From contig JAISXJ010000100.1 of assembly GCA_031270565.1 (NCBI GenBank), positions 1-36,197 of the forward strand: a stretch of 36,197 bases of DNA, written 5' to 3'. The notes under the pieces are model-generated. The model saw only the letters and a list, made by a program, of their open reading frames with translations, was not told the origin of the DNA and did no database searches. The stretch comes from Prevotellaceae bacterium. Lineage in GTDB: Bacteria > Bacteroidota > Bacteroidia > Bacteroidales > Paludibacteraceae. The position numbers were made by a program, and so were the translations under genes. Shown piece after piece: positions 8,762-36,197 of the stretch. Within the stretch, counting starts at the first letter, position 1. The number at the start of each line of letters is the position of its first letter.

Positions 8762-11296
8762 TTAAAGAGATGTACCGTCTTTTGTTTTGGACGTTTTGAT
8801 TAAGCCAAAGATAATCATCCCCAGCAGCACGACAATCACGACGCCAACCACGATGGATGCCACCAGCGAAATCCGCGCACTACTCTGGTAAACCTCGTCC
8901 ACGCATTTAAACTCAATCTTGTGACTTCCGGCGGGTATCTGTATGCCTCTGAGAATATAATTGACCTGTATAACGGGTGTCTCTACGTCATCGACAAAGG
9001 CTTTCCACGTCTTGTAATAGACCTCTGAAAACACAGCCAGTCGCGCTTCGGAACTATTACTCTCATAAACAAGATTACCGGGGTTTACATAATTCGTCAG
9101 TTGAATATCCGCGCCGGCGTCATTGGCAACGGTATTCGGCAACGTTATCTTTTGACGCCAGCGAGCGTCAATGACGGCTGTTGTTCGCACATCAATCTCT
9201 GCGAGCGCCTTAATCTCTTCGTCGGGCGTATCCACCCAGTGAATATTCTCCACAAACCACACATTACCCATAGCCTGAACATTCTTATGCACACGCGCTC
9301 CCTGTTCTGTCGAATAAATAATGTATCGCGTATTGAGCATATTGACCACGTTCATAATGTATCGCGTATTGAGCATATTGACCACGTTCATATTGATTGA
9401 CGAACTTAAATAATAATCTATTATATCCTGATAACGCCGCAGTTTGGCGGGACTGTATCCGCCCACCGACTTGTGGAAATAGGATGTTTCCGACTCGTTA
9501 AATGTGTTTTCGGTGAGACGATTCAGTACGCGGTAATCAGGGTCTTTATCCTGTAAAATATGTTTGTCTATGTCGGAAGCTACAAACTCCTTTGCTTTTT
9601 TCCCGGAAATAAAGTTATCTTCTCCGAGAAACCGCCTATCTACTGTCCACAAGTCGCAAAGAATAAGTATGCCAAGCGCTGCCACCACGTAGGATGTTTT
9701 CCATACTTTGGAGAGATAGAACCATATAATACCTGCGGCTAAGGCGATAAAGGCTGTCGAACGCCATGCGTCGGAAGCGAGCATGTGTTTACGGTCGGCG
9801 ACAAGCGCTGTTTGTAACCATTCGGGGAAGTTGGCATCGACGGATGCGGAGAAATTGAATAAAGCGCTTCCAAACAGGGCGAAAAACAGACAGATGCCGC
9901 CCGTAATACCCGTAGCGACGAGCAACGGTTTGAGTAACCGTTTGCGTGCTTCACCCGAAGCATTCACAATCTCCTTGAGGGCTAACACTGCCAGCGTCGC
10001 CATGCCTGTGTTTGCCATTATCAGCGCCGTAGAGGGCGTGCGGAACTTGTTGTACAGGGGTAAATGGTGAAACAGAAATTCATTAACCGCCATAAAGTTT
10101 CGCCCCCACGACAGAATCAGCGACACAATCACCACTGCCAATATCCACCATCGTTCGGGCTTTTTCACGATAATTAGCCCAAGCACAAAAAGCAGACAGA
10201 TAATAGCTCCCGCATAGACAGGTCCTGAGGTGAAAGGTTGCGTACCCCAGTACATCGGCGCGTGTCGGGTAAACTGCGCTGCCTGTCGCGCCTGAACGTC
10301 CTCGTGGATGAGGAAGTCGTATGTTCGGGAATCCTGACCGATGTTGTAATGCGAACTGCCTCCGTAGAAGTTGGGAATTAACAGGGTCATACTTTCCATT
10401 TTGTCGTAACTCCATTGGTAGGCATAGTCAATGTCAAGCCCCGATTTGGTTTTCCCCGAAGCATCCGCCTGCAAGACGGCTCCTCCTCGCATAGTATCCT
10501 TTGCGTAGTCCATTGTAGGAATCAATGACCCAAGCGACGGCGCAATAGAGAGTAAAGCCACCGGCAGCAACACCGCCACCGCTGTCAGATAGGTTTTCAG
10601 CGTGCGCTGTATGACGGCATAAATCAGATAGACAATTGCCAGAATGGCAATCATCAGAATCAGGTAGTAGGAAATCTGCTGATGTCCCCACAGAATATTT
10701 ATGCCCGTAAAGAGCAGCGTTACCAGTGCGCCAATGAGATATTTTTTCTTAAAACAGAGAATAATCCCGCCAAGCACGGGCGCCATAGTTGCCATGACGA
10801 GTCCCTTACTGGCGTGGCCGGCATCAATAATGATTAGATTGTAAGAGGCAAATGCGTAGGCCACCGCTCCCACAATGCTCAGCCACGGCTTGCATCTTAG
10901 CGACAGCATAAAAATATAAAAGCCCAGCAGATAAATAAACAGTATCCCGATATGATTCGTTGGAAGACAGAATGTAAATATCTTTCCAAAGATACGGAAT
11001 ACATTCGTTGTCGGCGGCATATAGGTATAATTGGCGGGCATCCCGCTGAACATACTGTTCGACCAGAAAGCATAATCGCCTGTCTGTTTGTGATACTCTC
11101 TCAGGTCGTTTCCCCAGCCTCGCGAACTTTTGATGTCGCCTTGCATCAGGTCTTTATTCTCGAAAACGATGGGAGAAAAATAGGCAACAGTCAGCCCCAG
11201 AAACAGGGCGACAGCCGCAATATGCGGCAAAGATTTTTTGAACAGGTTATTATTCATAGCAGTTTTTTGTTTGGATGGCATCATTAAAACGTTCAT
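8762..11296 (-). CDS. YfhO family membrane protein
   Basis: 844-aa polytopic membrane protein resembling the YfhO family and GT-C type glycosyltransferase-like proteins. It has an N-terminal TM helix, a periplasmic segment (DLMQGDIKSSRGWGNDLREY), about a dozen TM helices, and a large C-terminal soluble region ending in a TM helix. In Firmicutes YfhO modifies lipoteichoic acid; in Bacteroidetes the substrate is not established. An internal ATG 14 codons in (at 11254, MNNNLFKKSLPH) is an alternative start and perhaps the better one. The NMLNTRYI region contains an exact 36-bp in-frame duplication (9320-9391). A -7 box lies upstream at 11328-11336. Confidence 0.85.
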   Translation of the reverse strand: MNVLMMPSKQKTAMNNNLFKKSLPHIAAVALFLGLTVAYFSPIVFENKDLMQGDIKSSRGWGNDLREYHKQTGDYAFWSNSMFSGMPANYTYMPPTTNVFRIFGKIFTFCLPTNHIGILFIYLLGFYIFMLSLRCKPWLSIVGAVAYAFASYNLIIIDAGHASKGLVMATMAPVLGGIILCFKKKYLIGALVTLLFTGINILWGHQQISYYLILMIAILAIVYLIYAVIQRTLKTYLTAVAVLLPVALLSIAPSLGSLIPTMDYAKDTMRGGAVLQADASGKTKSGLDIDYAYQWSYDKMESMTLLIPNFYGGSSHYNIGQDSRTYDFLIHEDVQARQAAQFTRHAPMYWGTQPFTSGPVYAGAIICLLFVLGLIIVKKPERWWILAVVIVSLILSWGRNFMAVNEFLFHHLPLYNKFRTPSTALIMANTGMATLAVLALKEIVNASGEARKRLLKPLLVATGITGGICLFFALFGSALFNFSASVDANFPEWLQTALVADRKHMLASDAWRSTAFIALAAGIIWFYLSKVWKTSYVVAALGILILCDLWTVDRRFLGEDNFISGKKAKEFVASDIDKHILQDKDPDYRVLNRLTENTFNESETSYFHKSVGGYSPAKLRRYQDIIDYYLSSSINMNVVNMLNTRYIMNVVNMLNTRYIIYSTEQGARVHKNVQAMGNVWFVENIHWVDTPDEEIKALAEIDVRTTAVIDARWRQKITLPNTVANDAGADIQLTNYVNPGNLVYESNSSEARLAVFSEVYYKTWKAFVDDVETPVIQVNYILRGIQIPAGSHKIEFKCVDEVYQSSARISLVASIVVGVVIVVLLGMIIFGLIKTSKTKDGTSL
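9320..9391. repeat. 36-bp perfect tandem duplication inside the YfhO-like gene
   Basis: Two exact 36-bp copies (9320-9355 and 9356-9391) duplicate the 12 residues MNVVNMLNTRYI in frame. The repeated segment covers a conserved LNTRYI motif of the family. Confidence 0.95.
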
Positions 11297-11503: not shown

Positions 11504-11512
11504 TATCTTTGC
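11504..11512 (+). promoter_or_regulatory. -7 box of copy 3 (TATCTTTGC)
   Basis: Perfect match to the Bacteroidetes -7 box, 34 nt upstream of the copy 3 ATG. An ATTG that could serve as the -33 element lies 16 nt further upstream, a little closer than usual. Confidence 0.6.
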
Positions 11513-11546: not shown

Positions 11547-11651
11547 ATGCTTACATTCAGGATTACGAATTTACCATTTTTTCAGTTTAGACGGTTCAAC
11601 CGCCTAAAAGTAAGCTCGTTACAAAAGCCCCCCCCCCCGCATTTGCCTTAA
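11547..11651 (+). pseudogene. 44-aa small protein, copy 3, frameshifted by two extra C
   Basis: The ATG opens MLTFRITNLPFFQFRRFNRL and continues KVSSLQK. The C run has 11 bases, so the frame shifts to PPPPHLP and stops at 11651 after 34 residues. Removing two C restores AFALTPCIQGLINY ending at 11683. It may be a decayed copy or an off-state of a slippage-controlled ORF. The ORF track shows it with an unsupported upstream extension from 11424 that begins before the promoter box. Confidence 0.55.
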
Positions 11652-11721
11652 CTCCTTGTATTCAAGGGCTTATCAATTATTAAATATTTTTCTGTTAACA
11701 GTTAACAGCGCTCTCTCCGGT

Positions 11722-11794
11722 GTTGTCAGCACGTCGTCCGCAACTGCGGACGGTTTCCCGAAGTTGTCAGCACGCTGTCCGCAACTGTGGACGG
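11722..11794. repeat. Two tandem hairpin repeats, period 41 bp
   Basis: Two near-identical segments beginning GTTGTCAGCACG (11722 and 11763) each contain a palindrome GTCCGCAACTGCGGAC or GTCCGCAACTGTGGAC. No gene is visible. Confidence 0.8.
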
Positions 11795-11848
11795 CTTTAT
11801 ACAAATAGAAATATCAATCATATATGATGAGTAATTAATATTCTCTCT

Positions 11849-11942: not shown

Positions 11943-11970
11943 CAAAAAGCCCCTTGCAGGGCTTTTTTAG
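11943..11970 (+). terminator. Terminator-like hairpin before rocD
   Basis: AAAAAGCCC cttgca GGGCTTTTTT with T run. It would end a transcript started at the copy 3 promoter and insulate rocD. Confidence 0.7.
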
Positions 11971-12046
11971 TGAATAACGAATAGTGAATAATGACTGACA
12001 ACTGAAAATTAATAACTACACTCTACAAACTACAAACTAAAAAAAC

Positions 12047-12055
12047 TATCTTTGC
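12047..12055 (+). promoter_or_regulatory. -7 box of the arginine catabolic operon
   Basis: TATCTTTGC, 86 nt before the rocD ATG at 12142. The ORF-track start (TTG at 12052) lies inside this box and so cannot be the translation start. Confidence 0.65.
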
Positions 12056-12141
12056 AAGCGATTTTTTTGATGTTTAATTTTATAACACCAGAGATACGGA
12101 CATTTGTTTGCCGATTGCCGGTGTCGAATAATAAAAATACT

Positions 12142-13350
12142 ATGAAAACCAGTGAATTTATTGCCCGTGAGAATACTTACGGCGCTCACAACTATCACCC
12201 GCTTCCCGTTGTTCTGTCCAAAGGCAAAGGCGTGCACGTCTGGGATGTTGAAGGCAAACGCTATTTCGATTTTCTCGCCGGCTATTCAGCATTAGGTCAA
12301 GGACATTGTCATCCCAAAATCATTGCAGCGCTTAAAGAACAAGCCGACAAGCTGACACTTGTTTCCCGCGCTTTCTATTCCGATATTTTAGGAGAATACA
12401 TGGAATTTGCTTGCCGTTTCTTCGGCTACGATAAACTGTTACCGATGAATTCGGGCGCCGAAGCTGTGGAAACAGCGCTCAAATTGGCGCGTCGCTGGGG
12501 CTATGTGCGCAAAGGCGTTGCCGCCGAGAGCGCCAAGATTGTCGTCTGTGCAGATAATTTTCACGGACGCACCATCACCATTGTTTCGATGAGTACCGAC
12601 CCATCTTCATACGCCAATTATGGTCCCTATACGCCCGGCTTCATTAAAATACCTTATAACGATGTCCAATCGTTGCGAGATGCGCTTGCCGACCCTGCGG
12701 TGGTAGCCTTTCTGGTGGAGCCGATTCAGGGCGAAGCGGGCGTATGTGTACCCGATGACGGTTATCTGAAGGCATGTTACGACTGTTGCCGCGATAAGAA
12801 TGTCCTGTTCATCGCCGACGAAGTCCAGTCAGGCATCGCACGCACGGGGCGACTTTTAGCCTGCGATTATGAAGATGTACGTCCCGATATATTAATTCTT
12901 GGTAAAGCGCTTTCGGGAGGCGTTACGCCGGTGTCGGCTGTGCTGGCGGACGATGATGTGATGCTGACCATTCGCCCCGGCGAACACGGTTCCACCTTCG
13001 GCGGCAATCCGTTGGCATCTGCTGTCGGCATTGCAGCGCTGCAAGTGGTGATGGAGGAACATCTGGCAGAGAATGCGTACGCTATGGGAAATCTCTTTCG
13101 TGAGGAAATGTGTCGCCTGAATCATCCCCTGATTACGCAGGTTAGAGGGAAAGGACTTCTTAATGCTGTCGTTACAAAACCCGACGGCGCTGTTCAGGCG
13201 TGGGATATTTGTTTAAAACTTAAAGAAAACGGTCTTATCGCCAAGCCTACGCACGATTATATTATCCGTTTCACTCCGCCGCTTGTCATCACCGAGCCGG
13301 AGATGCGCGAAGCCATCGCTATTATTCAACAAACCTTTGCTGCATTATGA
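12142..13350 (+). CDS. rocD: Ornithine aminotransferase
   Basis: 402-aa class III PLP aminotransferase converting ornithine plus 2-oxoglutarate to glutamate 5-semialdehyde and glutamate. Visible features: [15 protein letters not shown] and [17 protein letters not shown] at the N-terminus, [19 protein letters not shown], the PLP Asp in [16 protein letters not shown], the Schiff-base Lys (about residue 254) in [17 protein letters not shown], and [14 protein letters not shown]. These favour ornithine over acetylornithine aminotransferase, as do the arginase and P5C dehydrogenase genes that follow. The start is set at 12142 because the longer frame begins inside the promoter. The arginase gene overlaps its stop by 4 bp. 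Confidence 0.94.
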
Positions 13351-15996: not shown

Positions 15997-17451
15997 TTAT
16001 TTTTTTGAAATGCAACGCACAGAGAGGCCGTGAGACCGAGTAAGGACAAAGTCCGTCTTCTGGTTAGTCTCGTAGAAATGCAGGGTGTTACCGGAACTAG
16101 TACCACTAGCTACAGTGCTCCAGTAGTAGCTGTCGGTGCCAGGGGCGTAGTACAACTTGCCAGAGGTGTCCCGGCCGCCGGCAGCGGGCAAAAACAATGC
16201 GTCGCCAACCTGCATACCGGTAGTGTAATTGTTGTTAACGCTCGACCAGTTTGTGCCTACCTTTGTGATAGCGTTATTAGAGGTATTTATCACAGCAGTC
16301 CATTCCTCTTTTGTAGGCACGCGCCAACCGTCAGGGCAGGGATTAGCGGAAGTCATGTTCCAGTCAGCAGATGTGGTGGGAGGCTTTGTAATGTTTGTCC
16401 AGTCTGGTACAGACGATTTGTACGCCGGGTCTTGGTCTTGCGCCTGTGTCACAGCCGCATTGCTAACCCCCCATTTGTATTTCGCCCCGTGAATCTCCGC
16501 CGCAGGCGTAAACGGGTCTGCCGCTTGATTAGCGCCAAGATTGTGACACATGAATGCCCTCCATACTATGTCGCTTGAGGCGGCTGCTTTTGTATACGCC
16601 CCGCAACATGAACAATCCTGAAAAGATGTGTTCAGTTCAAGCACCCTATCGGCTGAGCCATCATTGTAAACGGCATACAACTTGAGCTTGAAAGCCTGGT
16701 CGCGAGTTTTGTTCAACAGCGTGCTTTGCAGCGATTCTTTGTAGTAAACCTTCACCTTGCACTTGGTGCCGCTGGTGATGGAGCCGCTGTAATTAGTGTT
16801 CGGAACAATGCTGTCTACGATATGTCCGCCGCCAACCGTTTCGCTGAAATAAAAGCGAACATTGTTTACCGTACCGAAAGGAGTAAACGTGTATTCCTGC
16901 ACGCCGGAATAGGGAGCCGCACTAACGCCGTCCTGAGACGTGCGGTCAATAAAATCGGTCTTCTGGAAGGTACGGACAGCTGTCGTGCCGCAACTGTTTA
17001 TGTCGTCATTGCCGGTGGTGGCAATGTCAAAGCAACGCTTACCGGAAAACGTACCGCTACCTGTAGGGAGACCGCCGCTTGTAAGGATATCGACGCCATC
17101 GCTACCGCCCCAATAATTCCACTTGCTTCCGTCCCAAAGATAGAGACCGTCTCCGTTAGGTATAAGGTAATCGTTGGCGTTCCAGACAATCATCCCAGCC
17201 AGCGCCTGTTTCTCAGTCGGAGTAGAGATAGCGCCCGCGTTAGGGAAGGTAGCGGGGATAGCAGTCAAAGAGGTCAGCTCTACATTCGAGAGCAGTAGCC
17301 CGCCTTTAACGCCGTTTTGCGGATTCAAATCTACAATCGTCCCTGCTTTTGGCAGGTCGCTACCTCCAATAGTTACCTGCGCCGCAGCATAATTGGCGAC
17401 GCTTAGAAATGCTGCTGTAAATGCAGCGAAAATAAATTGATTAGTTTTCAT
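15997..17451 (-). CDS. Exported FISUMP-domain protein
   Basis: 484-aa secreted or surface protein. The ATG three codons inside the tracked ORF is used because it begins a clean signal peptide (MKTNQFIFAAFTAAFLSVANYAAA) and matches other exported proteins here. After the signal comes VTIGGSDLPKAGTIVDLNP, then IVWNANDYLIPNGDGLYLWDG, segments common in Bacteroidales surface proteins. The C-terminal third is a FISUMP (Fib_succ_major) domain: NPCPDGWRVPTKEEW, a Gly-Arg rich centre (LPAAGGRDTSGKLYY), YYWSTVASG and the terminal SHGLSVRCISKK. There is no T9SS tail, so the localisation route is unclear. Function is not known for the family. Copy 2 of the C-tract unit lies upstream on the same strand, so its promoter may transcribe this gene. 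Confidence 0.85.
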   Translation of the reverse strand: MKTNQFIFAAFTAAFLSVANYAAAQVTIGGSDLPKAGTIVDLNPQNGVKGGLLLSNVELTSLTAIPATFPNAGAISTPTEKQALAGMIVWNANDYLIPNGDGLYLWDGSKWNYWGGSDGVDILTSGGLPTGSGTFSGKRCFDIATTGNDDINSCGTTAVRTFQKTDFIDRTSQDGVSAAPYSGVQEYTFTPFGTVNNVRFYFSETVGGGHIVDSIVPNTNYSGSITSGTKCKVKVYYKESLQSTLLNKTRDQAFKLKLYAVYNDGSADRVLELNTSFQDCSCCGAYTKAAASSDIVWRAFMCHNLGANQAADPFTPAAEIHGAKYKWGVSNAAVTQAQDQDPAYKSSVPDWTNITKPPTTSADWNMTSANPCPDGWRVPTKEEWTAVINTSNNAITKVGTNWSSVNNNYTTGMQVGDALFLPAAGGRDTSGKLYYAPGTDSYYWSTVASGTSSGNTLHFYETNQKTDFVLTRSHGLSVRCISKK

Positions 17452-17463
17452 AAAAAACACATT

Positions 17464-17740
17464 TTAAATTAATTGATAGATATAGTTGAAATATAAAAAG
17501 TCAATTGTAATAGCGTCTTTTTGCGTTCTTTGCGTATTCCTTGCGTCTTTGCGGTAAAAATATTTAACCGCAAAGAGCACAAGACTTGTCCCGCCAAAGC
17601 GGGAGTTTTTTTCACAAAGGGCACAAGGGCATTTATTGGTTTTATGTTTGTAACGAGACAGGTCGTTAAAAACGACCAACCAACTAACTCCTCGTCAGAG
17701 ACGATGAGTAGTGGAGGCAATAAAACAGAACGGCAACACC
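17464..17740. repeat. Repeat-rich leader region upstream of the FISUMP gene
   Basis: Contains degenerate GCAAAGA/CTTTGCG tracts and the palindrome CCCGCcaaaGCGGG (also near 409-427). The REP-like block at 17646-17714 is listed separately. The 71-codon and 131-codon ORFs here mostly translate repeats. Confidence 0.6.
17646..17714. repeat. REP-like palindrome block R1
   Basis: Order: tttgtaacgag, hairpin GGTCGTTaaaAACGACC, then a CTCCTCGTcagagACGATGAG hairpin ending in AGTAGTGG. The same arrangement occurs at 21840-21907 next to the RAYT gene and, inverted, at 34714-34786. Confidence 0.85.
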
Positions 17741-17836
17741 TCCGAAAATTCCGGAAACGCGCCGCAATAATTGTATATATATAGGGCAAGAAGACGCTAA
17801 AAAACGTCGTGCTACTAAGTGTAAACTGAAAAGTCT

Positions 17837-17971
17837 TTAATAAATGATAAGCCCTTGAATACAAGGAGTTAAGGCGAATGCGGGGGGGGGCTTTTGTAAC
17901 GAGCTTACTTTTAGCCGGTTAAACCGTCTAAACTGAAAAAATGGTAAATATGGAATCCCAGATGTAAGCAT
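17837..17971 (-). CDS. 44-aa conserved small protein, copy 2 (unknown function)
   Basis: The ATG lies 36 nt after TATCTTTGC. The peptide begins MLTSGIPYLPFFQF, continues with the common core RRFNRLKVSSLQKPPP and ends ALTPCIQGLIIY. Exactly 44 codons plus TAA, as in copies 1 and 4. The C run is nine bases (three Pro codons, preceded by AAG). It is upstream of the FISUMP gene on the same strand, which fits a leader-peptide role, but this is inference. Confidence 0.6.
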   Translation of the reverse strand: MLTSGIPYLPFFQFRRFNRLKVSSLQKPPPAFALTPCIQGLIIY

Positions 17972-18007: not shown

Positions 18008-18016
18008 GCAAAGATA
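18008..18016 (-). promoter_or_regulatory. -7 box of copy 2 (TATCTTTGC)
   Basis: Reads TATCTTTGC on the minus strand, 36 nt before the copy 2 ATG. It would also be a promoter for the FISUMP gene with a long leader (over 500 nt). Confidence 0.6.
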
Positions 18017-18027
18017 ATACTTTTTTT

Positions 18028-18110
18028 AGTGAATAGTGAATAACGAATAGTGAATAGTGAATAATATTTTTTTAGTGGTTAGAGTGTAGTTATTAGTTAG
18101 TGAATAGTGA
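18028..18110. repeat. GTGAATA low-complexity repeats
   Basis: Reiterated 'gtgaatagtgaataacgaata' style units, shared with several other intergenic regions in the window. Confidence 0.8.
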
Positions 18111-21802: not shown

Positions 21803-21909
21803 ACTACCCCTCGTTTGTAACGAGGGGTAAATGATTATCTCGTTTGTAACGAGATTGGTCGTTGAAAACAACCAACCAATAACTCCTCGTCTCTGACGAG
21901 GAGTAGTGG
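21803..21909. repeat. REP-like palindrome array R2, downstream flank of RAYT
   Basis: Contains ACCCCTCGTTtgtAACGAGGGGT, then CTCGTTtgtAACGAG, then GGTCGTTgaaaACAACC, then ACTCCTCGTctctgACGAGGAGT followed by AGTGG. It directly abuts the stop codon of the RAYT gene. Confidence 0.88.
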
Positions 21910-22458
21910 CTACACTTCATCTATTTCTATTACAGCGCTTAATCCCGCATAGTTTCGAGCAGAAGAAAATAAATATTCTTCTGCCTTTGCCACAATACCG
22001 GTACGTACCGGATTTTCGTGAACATAATTTATCCGTTGCTCTATCATTTCTGTTGTTGTTAATTCTACCGGATGACTTTTATCCTGCCAAAAACGATGGT
22101 GTTCAATGCGATGGTCAAACTTTCCGACATATTCAAAACGGTACAAAATCCAGTCTCTCCGGCTTTCCGGCAATTGTTTTAGTTCTTCCAACATAGATTT
22201 TGCCGTGTGTTTTTTATAGTCCCTGATAAAATCACTCATTCTGAAAGGTGGCTCTACACTGCAAACCAAGTGTAAATGATTTGTCATCAAACACCATGCA
22301 TATAATTTTAGCCCTTTGTTTTTTCGGCAATATGTCAACGATTCGGCAATTATGTTTTTGTAAATAAGGCGCGTAAATACATCTACCCAATCAGTTATGG
22401 TAAATGTAAGAAAATAAACACCGTCCTGTTTTTCTACTCTATAATTCTCTGATGACAT
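21910..22458 (-). CDS. REP-associated tyrosine transposase (RAYT, IS200-like Y1)
   Basis: 182-aa single-domain Y1 transposase of the TnpA_REP family. The HUH metal site is in CLMTNHLHLVCSV and the catalytic Tyr in INYVHENPVRTGIV. A VEKQDGVYFLTFTITDW start and EYLFSSARNY end are typical of Bacteroidetes members. Such enzymes nick and rejoin single-stranded palindromes and are thought to spread REP sequences; they are domesticated rather than ordinary IS elements. Here the gene lies between two blocks of GTAACGAG palindromes (R2 and R3), as expected for a REPtron, and more blocks occur at 17646 and 34714. Length is typical and the frame is intact. Confidence 0.92.
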   Translation of the reverse strand: MSSENYRVEKQDGVYFLTFTITDWVDVFTRLIYKNIIAESLTYCRKNKGLKLYAWCLMTNHLHLVCSVEPPFRMSDFIRDYKKHTAKSMLEELKQLPESRRDWILYRFEYVGKFDHRIEHHRFWQDKSHPVELTTTEMIEQRINYVHENPVRTGIVAKAEEYLFSSARNYAGLSAVIEIDEV

Positions 22459-22485: not shown

Positions 22486-22570
22486 CGTTTGTAAACGACT
22501 TACCATTTGCCTCTCGTTACAAACGAGATTACCATTTACCCCTCGTTACAAACGAGGGGTAAATGGTAAG
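22486..22570. repeat. REP-like palindrome array R3, upstream flank of RAYT
   Basis: Contains CGTTTgtAAACG, CTCGTTacaAACGAG and CCCCTCGTTacaAACGAGGGG separated by 'taccattt' spacers. The last palindrome, with its TTTACC/GGTAAA extension, forms an arm of over 15 bp. Confidence 0.88.
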
Positions 22571-27566: not shown

Positions 27567-27639
27567 TGTTTTTTATTTTTGACAAACTGAAAACTGAAAA
27601 ACTAAACTCTAAACTCTACAAACTACAAACTAAAAGAAC

Positions 27640-27648
27640 TACCTTTGC
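27640..27648 (+). promoter_or_regulatory. -7 box of purA
   Basis: TACCTTTGC, 30 nt upstream of the purA ATG. Confidence 0.65.
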
Positions 27649-27678
27649 ACGGTAAAAAAATAATTAAAAAAGAAATTT

Positions 27679-34786: not shown

Positions 34787-34846
34787 GGAGAGTTTTCAGG
34801 CAGTCAGGGAAGCTGTTTTTTTGCCCGTTAGGGCATATACTTTTAT

Positions 34847-34878
34847 AGTGAATAACGAATAGTGAATAGTGAATAATG
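34847..34878. repeat. GTGAATA low-complexity repeat
   Basis: 'gtgaataacgaatagtgaat' style tract like those at 273, 11968 and 18028. Confidence 0.75.
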
Positions 34879-34894
34879 AACGAAGACATAAAGA

Positions 34895-35067: not shown

Positions 35068-35076
35068 TATCTTTGC
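35068..35076 (+). promoter_or_regulatory. -7 box of copy 4 (TATCTTTGC)
   Basis: TATCTTTGC, 37 nt before the copy 4 ATG. It is the nearest clear promoter to the lipoprotein gene at 35517, implying a 5' leader of about 430 nt. Confidence 0.6.
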
Positions 35077-35113: not shown

Positions 35114-35248
35114 ATGATTATTTCAGGGCTTTTATCCGTACCATTTTTTCAGATTAGACGGTTTAACCGGCTAAAAGTAAGTTCGTTACAAAAGCCCCCC
35201 CCCGCATTCAGCTTAACTCCTTGTATTCAAGGGCTTATCATTTATTAA
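35114..35248 (+). CDS. 44-aa conserved small protein, copy 4 (unknown function)
   Basis: The ATG lies 37 nt after TATCTTTGC. The peptide begins MIISGLLSVPFFQI, has the common core RRFNRLKVSSLQKPPP and ends SLTPCIQGLIIY; 44 codons plus TAA as in copies 1 and 2. Against copy 2 the core differs by one silent change (AGC/AGT) and Ala to Ser. The N-terminal 14 residues vary more between copies. It precedes a lipoprotein gene on the same strand, consistent with a leader-peptide or regulatory role, which is not proven. Confidence 0.6.
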   Translation: MIISGLLSVPFFQIRRFNRLKVSSLQKPPPAFSLTPCIQGLIIY

Positions 35249-35516
35249 AGACTTTTTTATTTACGCTTAACAGCGCGAAGTTTCTTCGTGTTTTTTCGCC
35301 GTATACAACTATAAGGGCAACTTTCCTGAAGTTTCGGGAGGGTTGCCGTTTTGAACTTATGAGCCATAAGTTTGAAAAGATTGGTCATAAAACGCTTTAT
35401 TACGCCCTTCGTTGGGAGAATACACGTGGCGAAAAAGGTCTCTGGAGTGAAATAGGTATGGCAATAGCGCCGTAGAAACATGAATTATATTTTTGAATTT
35501 AAAAACACAACTAAAA

Positions 35517-36197
35517 ATGAAAAAACAATTTTTCCAAGTGGCTCTCGTAGCCGTAACAGTAATGGCAGGCGTAGCAATGACCGCCTGCGGAAGCAGTAAA
35601 CAGGCAGCGCAAAGAAGCGTTGCAAGTACGCAACAGTCATCAACTGACCAAGAAATTGAGCAGTTGAAACGACAAATGGAACTCGACAAGCTGAAAGGCG
35701 AAGCCGACCGCGCTGCAAAACAGCGCGAGGCAGATGCGGCAATCGCCGAACATAATGCCAAAATGCAGGCAGAGCGTTTAGCGGCAGCAACCGAACAGCC
35801 CTGCCAACTCTATGACGATGCTGAATGGTTCACCGGTACAGGTGTGCGCCGCGTGAAACTCAACAGTTTGAACACTGCGGCAACAGCCCTTTTGCGCAGC
35901 ACGCAGCAGCAACTCCGCCTCAAACTAAAAGGCGTGTACAAAGCCGTTGTGCGCGACTATTTTGACCAAATGGATATGGACGAAGGCTCTTACGCCGTAT
36001 CGCATATCGAAAGCGCAGGCGATTATATTATCGACCAAAAGTGCAACGAAACCTACGAGGCATGTCGAAAAAACACCGCGCCAGATGCAGAAGGCTATGT
36101 TACGCTCTATATGGGCATAAAAGTCAGTAAAAAAGCCGTTGTTGAGGAGATAATCAACGAAATTTCCAAAGACAAAAAAATGGAAGTGCGTTTTAAC
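35517..36197 (+). CDS. Lipoprotein with coiled coil, cut by window end
   Basis: An open frame of 227 codons runs off the end of the window, so the ORF track misses it. It starts MKKQFFQVALVAVTVMAGVA and has a lipobox MTAC followed by GSSKQ. Residues about 45-90 are charged and Gln/Ala/Glu-rich (EIEQLKRQMELDKLKGEADR), a likely coiled coil. Then follows a folded region (YDDAEWFTGTGVRRVKLNSL, LRLKLKGVYKAVVRDYFDQM). The ending resembles secreted lipoproteins of the LPP20 type in a general way, but I cannot assign a family. It is probably envelope-anchored. Copy 4 of the C-tract unit lies just upstream and is the likely source of its promoter. Confidence 0.8.
   Translation, partial: MKKQFFQVALVAVTVMAGVAMTACGSSKQAAQRSVASTQQSSTDQEIEQLKRQMELDKLKGEADRAAKQREADAAIAEHNAKMQAERLAAATEQPCQLYDDAEWFTGTGVRRVKLNSLNTAATALLRSTQQQLRLKLKGVYKAVVRDYFDQMDMDEGSYAVSHIESAGDYIIDQKCNETYEACRKNTAPDAEGYVTLYMGIKVSKKAVVEEIINEISKDKKMEVRFN

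Follow-up and report, generated by a model that had tools for sequence, protein, structure and literature searches.

A family of 5' leaders in a Bacteroidales MAG combines a short ORF, a tract of C and a reading frame (called L here) that is open from the tract to near the start of the downstream gene. We propose that these leaders probably carry phase-variable upstream ORFs, which would license expression of the gene behind them and whose variable element is the tract. The stretch of DNA analyzed, referred to as the window, is 36,197 nt long and constitutes contig C31 of the MAG (1.99 Mb in 201 contigs). The MAG contains about 80 occurrences of the leader core, four of them in the window.

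Anatomy of the leaders and their C tracts

We compared 79 distinct leader copies in an alignment. They share a common order of elements: the box TATCTTTGC, an A-rich stretch, an ATG, 27 codons and the C tract. The box is of a Bacteroidales type and promoter-like, and may drive transcription of the leader. The interval between the ATG and the tract is free of indels in 72 of 79 copies. Synonymous changes predominate among the common variants in codons 15-27 (90 vs 39.5 expected when copies are counted), and distinct variants are skewed toward synonymous changes only mildly. The tract encodes PPP after a conserved RRFNRLKVSSLQK. Three conserved hairpins with few compensatory changes lie 3' of it, of which hairpin 1 alone was flagged by a consensus terminator scan of the leader. 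Searching Rfam 15 with the window and representative leaders returned no credible family and no match at or above the gathering score.

The tract is exactly 9 C long in 62 of the 79 copies and is 6-12 C long or interrupted in the remainder, counts that are not independent because leader copies within one genome are related. Many leaders lie at contig ends, and most of the genomes are fragmented assemblies. Among copy pairs of this MAG that are at least 90% identical, 78% agree in tract length. Given this agreement and the mode at 9, free switching is not apparent in this genome. Nine C is nonetheless long enough to slip in principle, since the C(8-11) tracts of C. jejuni vary in length within populations (PMC3025981). 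Confinement of off-modal lengths to orphan leaders was only a trend, in that copies with such lengths tended to have lost their gene (p = 0.09).

C8 runs are far more frequent in the window than expected by chance (10 overlapping matches vs a mean of 0.65 in shuffles). The coordinates of the four tracts confirm the lengths given in a preliminary description, which are 9, 11, 9 and 9 C in coordinate order. Copy 1, on the minus strand, has a 44-aa leader ORF at 84-218 with nine C at 129-137 and a box, TACTTTTG, at 256-263; the contig ends before its downstream gene. Copy 3, also on the minus strand, has its promoter-like box TATCTTTGC at 18008-18016, a 44-aa leader ORF in the 9-C state at 17837-17971, nine C at 17882-17890 and hairpin 1 (TCCTTGTATTCAAGGG) at 17852-17867. 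Its frame L (17469-17879) stops 17 nt short of the ATG (17451) of the gene downstream, and entering it would need a 10-C tract. The gene that follows (15997-17460, minus strand, with an upstream GTG at 17460) codes for a secreted Fib_succ_major (PF09603) paralog; its score of 40.8 bits against the Pfam cut-off of 33.9 places it in this family. Copy 4, on the plus strand, has the promoter-like box at 35068-35076, a 44-aa leader ORF in the 9-C state at 35114-35248, nine C at 35195-35203 and a frame L at 35206-35475. A lipoprotein-like gene (MKKQFFQVALVAVTVMAGVAMTACG..., 35517-36197, plus strand), cut by the window end, has its ATG 41 nt beyond the end of this frame.

The eleven-C copy had drawn attention initially and had been numbered 3; its 11 C do lie within 11547-11651, but it is the second copy by coordinate. 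On the plus strand, its promoter-like box (11504-11512, conserved in the family alignment) precedes a 34-aa leader ORF (11547-11651) that stops before hairpin 1, with the tract at 11628-11638. Hairpins 2 and 3 are absent. A remnant of L (11641-11808) ends 333 bp before the ATG at 12142 of a class-III aminotransferase gene (12142-13350, plus strand), which has a promoter-like box TATCTTTGC of its own at 12047-12055. Copy 2 looks like a decayed orphan upstream of the aminotransferase gene and thus illustrates a working switch poorly.

The preliminary description had also derived three outcomes from tract length, and the translations bear these out: 9 C gives the 44-aa peptide ending in ...KPPPAFALTPCIQGLIIY, 11 C gives a 34-aa truncation ending in ...KPPPPHLP, and with 10 C translation would pass into a different, long frame. 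The suggestion that every copy has three such states holds for nearly every intact copy, with the third frame open far beyond chance.

A frame kept open between tract and gene

Most copies with enough downstream sequence lie 240-580 bp upstream of a gene on the same strand, and the products of these genes start like MKTNQFLFAALTAAFLSVASFSAAQVTIGG. The genome contains 65 PF09603 matches at E <= 0.001, part of them below the curated cut-off. Because most copies precede secreted PF09603-type genes on the same strand, the "repeat" is mainly a 5' leader common to the genes of a large family of secreted proteins; some copies are orphaned or stand before other genes. We rejected a model in which tract length disables the ORF of the gene itself, as the gene frame opens more than 170 bp past the tract in 31 of 33 copies.

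Three frames lead on from the tract: one with a stop at about +10, one with a stop between +32 and +42, and L, which continues to near the gene start. We distinguished three leader types. Listed frame by frame, the post-tract stops are at +42, +10 and far downstream in G-type leaders, at +33, far downstream and +11 in T-type leaders, and far downstream, +10 and +32 in A-type leaders; a few diverged copies differ. Each type has a far stop in one frame, so L is present in all three despite their different post-tract bases. In the 33 copies with an identifiable gene, and with the final 70 nt left out, L contains 10 stops, whereas the two other frames contain 116 and 111, and dinucleotide shuffles give 127+-10. 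In 27 of these 33 copies, L remains open until at most 70 nt from the gene start, while 200 shuffles gave a mean of 1.0 and a maximum of 3 such copies. Indels between the tract and the third hairpin mostly preserve the L frame.

The substitution pattern in L is not that of a protein-coding sequence under constraint. In its first 35 codons, synonymous (30 vs 27.7) and missense (92 vs 90.4) changes are at neutral expectation, and nonsense changes are low (3 vs 6.9 expected). We therefore rejected a conserved protein encoded by L. With missense changes neutral, openness seems to be kept rather than a peptide, and we read this pattern as selection for passage of ribosomes through L.

Only one tract length modulo 3 enters L. 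The leader ORF and L are off by one base in most copies of this genome; to join L, G-type leaders need one extra base, and T- and A-type leaders need one fewer. Five of the 64 copies with a scorable state are in frame with L. Nearly all copies in this genome, with 9 C out of frame with L, would thus be in the OFF state that we propose below. The leaders share two properties of homopolymeric-tract contingency loci: the tract is an uninterrupted G/C run of about 8 or more in or beside an expressed unit, and its length alters an ORF under selection, as L is kept open.

Leaders in other genomes

We searched other genomes for the core motif, allowing up to 2 mismatches. It was absent from the 4 other genomes of the same genus that were examined and occurred 7 times in G017, from another genus of the same family. 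Leaders of similar layout are present in G003 and G004 (same genus) and in G395 (another family), with smaller sets in G276, G438 and G022. Their sequences are unrelated or just partly similar to those of the window, and they follow a common plan: a short ORF, a C tract, a palindrome with TTGATWATCA or similar, and then a gene, often for a secreted product. As before, a single frame is long and the remaining ones usually close fast. Of 39 relatives' leaders (G017 included, gene starts set by a simple longest-ORF rule), 25 have an L that extends to 60 nt or less from the gene start, against a mean of 4.3 and a maximum of 8 in shuffles. Where PF09603-like genes follow the leaders of G003 and G004, L frequently stops 50-330 nt ahead of the gene. 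The recurrence of the layout in unrelated leaders is a stronger argument than the counts within one genome.

Tract lengths are scattered in the relatives, ranging over 9-18 C in G004, 8-15 C in G003 and 7-20 C in G395, and every incoming frame is represented. None of the 8 leader pairs in these three genomes that are at least 90% identical share a tract length. Most of the larger leader sets include a minority of copies whose ORF is in frame with L. Slippage in the relatives, together with a constrained or rarely slipping 9-C tract in the MAG studied here, would give this pattern of lengths. In the relatives with the same layout, lengths of 7-20 C are contingency-like, in support of the earlier characterization of the tract as a possible contingency locus; in this genome, the tract is strongly modal at 9.

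Several other C-rich loci came up in these genomes. We rejected the 117 tracts of C9 or longer in G016 as leaders, because the ten loci that we read (L152-L179) belong to an unrelated dispersed element, GGGGGAGACTT-C9-TAATTCTC, with a C9-C10 tract. Single matches in G300 and G368 were judged incidental. Unrelated poly-C leaders precede the same gene (MANLKSGLILGEGENLVMELEAELWASSSN...) in G004 (L165, 16 C) and G000 (L072, 9 C). At a contig end of G004 (L199), a 75-C run beside a leader-like palindrome is probably an assembly artefact.

A proposed switch and competing explanations

We propose the following mechanism. Each leader would be transcribed from its own promoter, and translation of the short ORF would run into the C tract. 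One tract length modulo 3 would join the short ORF to L and carry ribosomes roughly as far as the downstream start codon; at the other two lengths, translation would end about 3-14 codons past the tract. Ribosomes running through L would turn the gene ON, by preventing Rho- or hairpin-dependent termination in the leader, by being delivered to the start codon (coupling), or both. An early stop would leave the gene OFF by polarity. The three-state structure described earlier is largely retained in this mechanism, but the unit switched would be traversal of the leader ORF, neither the 44-aa product as such nor the gene.

The main rival for this genome is recoding: RNA polymerase would slip, or ribosomes would shift frame on CCC codons, at a tract that serves as a programmed slippage site, and every cell would have a constant share of its ribosomes entering L. 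Such a site would account for a tract that is almost always 9 uninterrupted C here while other synonymous sites vary, and for an ORF that in most copies misses L by one base. The opposite shifts required in G-type and T-type leaders do not suit a ribosomal shift in one direction. The relatives' scattered lengths, with all incoming frames represented, argue in the same sense; neither observation speaks against transcriptional slippage. We consider recoding unlikely overall.

Somewhat less likely still is a fixed leader-peptide attenuator, in which the C tract encodes a Pro-Pro-Pro pause, its length is held at 9 and other lengths represent decay. The mode at 9 and the position of PPP after RRFNRLKVSSLQK and before the hairpins suit such a device, and pausing at Pro-Pro is established (PMC8129111). 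An attenuator leaves unexplained why the frame not entered at 9 C is open to the gene start, why the C run is uninterrupted where other proline codons would serve, and why relatives carry 7-20 C. A dispersed repeat with no regulatory role, its ORFs and tract incidental and its length differences due to neutral slippage or assembly error, is very improbable: the many copies, the contig breaks inside the element, its sporadic distribution and the other dispersed repeats that the window contains along with a RAYT-like gene would suit it, but orientation and distance to one gene family are fixed, L is kept open, and the same logic recurs in unrelated sequences.

A phase-variable upstream ORF can be compared with several known systems; our literature search did not find a description of the present system. 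Bacteroides invertible promoters provide phase variation of surface features by DNA inversion. The leaders resemble them as candidates for surface phase variation in Bacteroidales and differ in that no inversion was seen at the leaders in an unsystematic look. In Neisseria siaD, a frame change in a poly(dC) tract is said to act through a premature translation stop and Rho polarity. The siaD tract lies inside the coding sequence of one gene, whereas the tracts described here lie in the leaders of many paralogs. tnaC is a regulatory leader peptide, a short translated 5' ORF that controls a downstream gene. Control by a short 5' ORF, RNA structure and Rho-dependent termination would be points of likeness with tnaC and with E. 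coli toiL-topAI, where an upstream ORF can control a gene and Rho-dependent termination is involved (PMC12121999). These two systems answer a ligand or translation stress and contain a stall site, whereas the proposed input here is a heritable tract length and the feature kept is a long open frame. The poly-G/C contingency loci of C. jejuni are alike in that a G/C homopolymer of 8-11 or more sets the reading frame, and in being numerous per genome and often linked to surface functions (PMC3025981). Their tracts are usually in the gene or just upstream; here a separate upstream ORF carries the tract and the gene ORF is intact.

The phase-variable upstream ORF may represent a distinct class of contingency switch in several Bacteroidales lineages, a proposal for and against which we find the case evenly balanced. 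In this class, the upstream ORF would contain a slippable C tract that gates ribosome transit, and the main selected property of the leader would be an open frame to the gene start. Dozens of intact surface-protein genes would be switched in cis by an element that lies outside them, and unrelated leaders would have converged on this arrangement. If this is true, dozens of secreted-protein genes per genome would each be independently switchable by length changes outside the genes, and gene-centered searches for phase-variable ORFs would overlook such switches. Uncultured Bacteroidales would then have a way of diversifying their surface in addition to invertible promoters. Switching is directly testable with existing metagenome reads.

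The window contains additional repeats. A Y1_Tnp/RAYT-like transposase gene (PF01797) at 21910-22458 on the minus strand is flanked by near-perfect inverted REP-like palindromes (CTCGTTACAAACGAG) at 21805-21854 and 22512-22561, and the string CTCGTTACAAA is common to these palindromes and the leader core. The gene at 8762-11296 (minus strand) contains a perfect, in-frame 36-bp tandem duplication (12 codons) at 9318-9389. Simple repeats (TTCACTATTCGTTATTCAC, AACTACACTCTAAACTA) lie upstream at many promoters, outside leaders too (260-299, 11963-12056, 18022-18061, 27598-27649 and 34841-34880).
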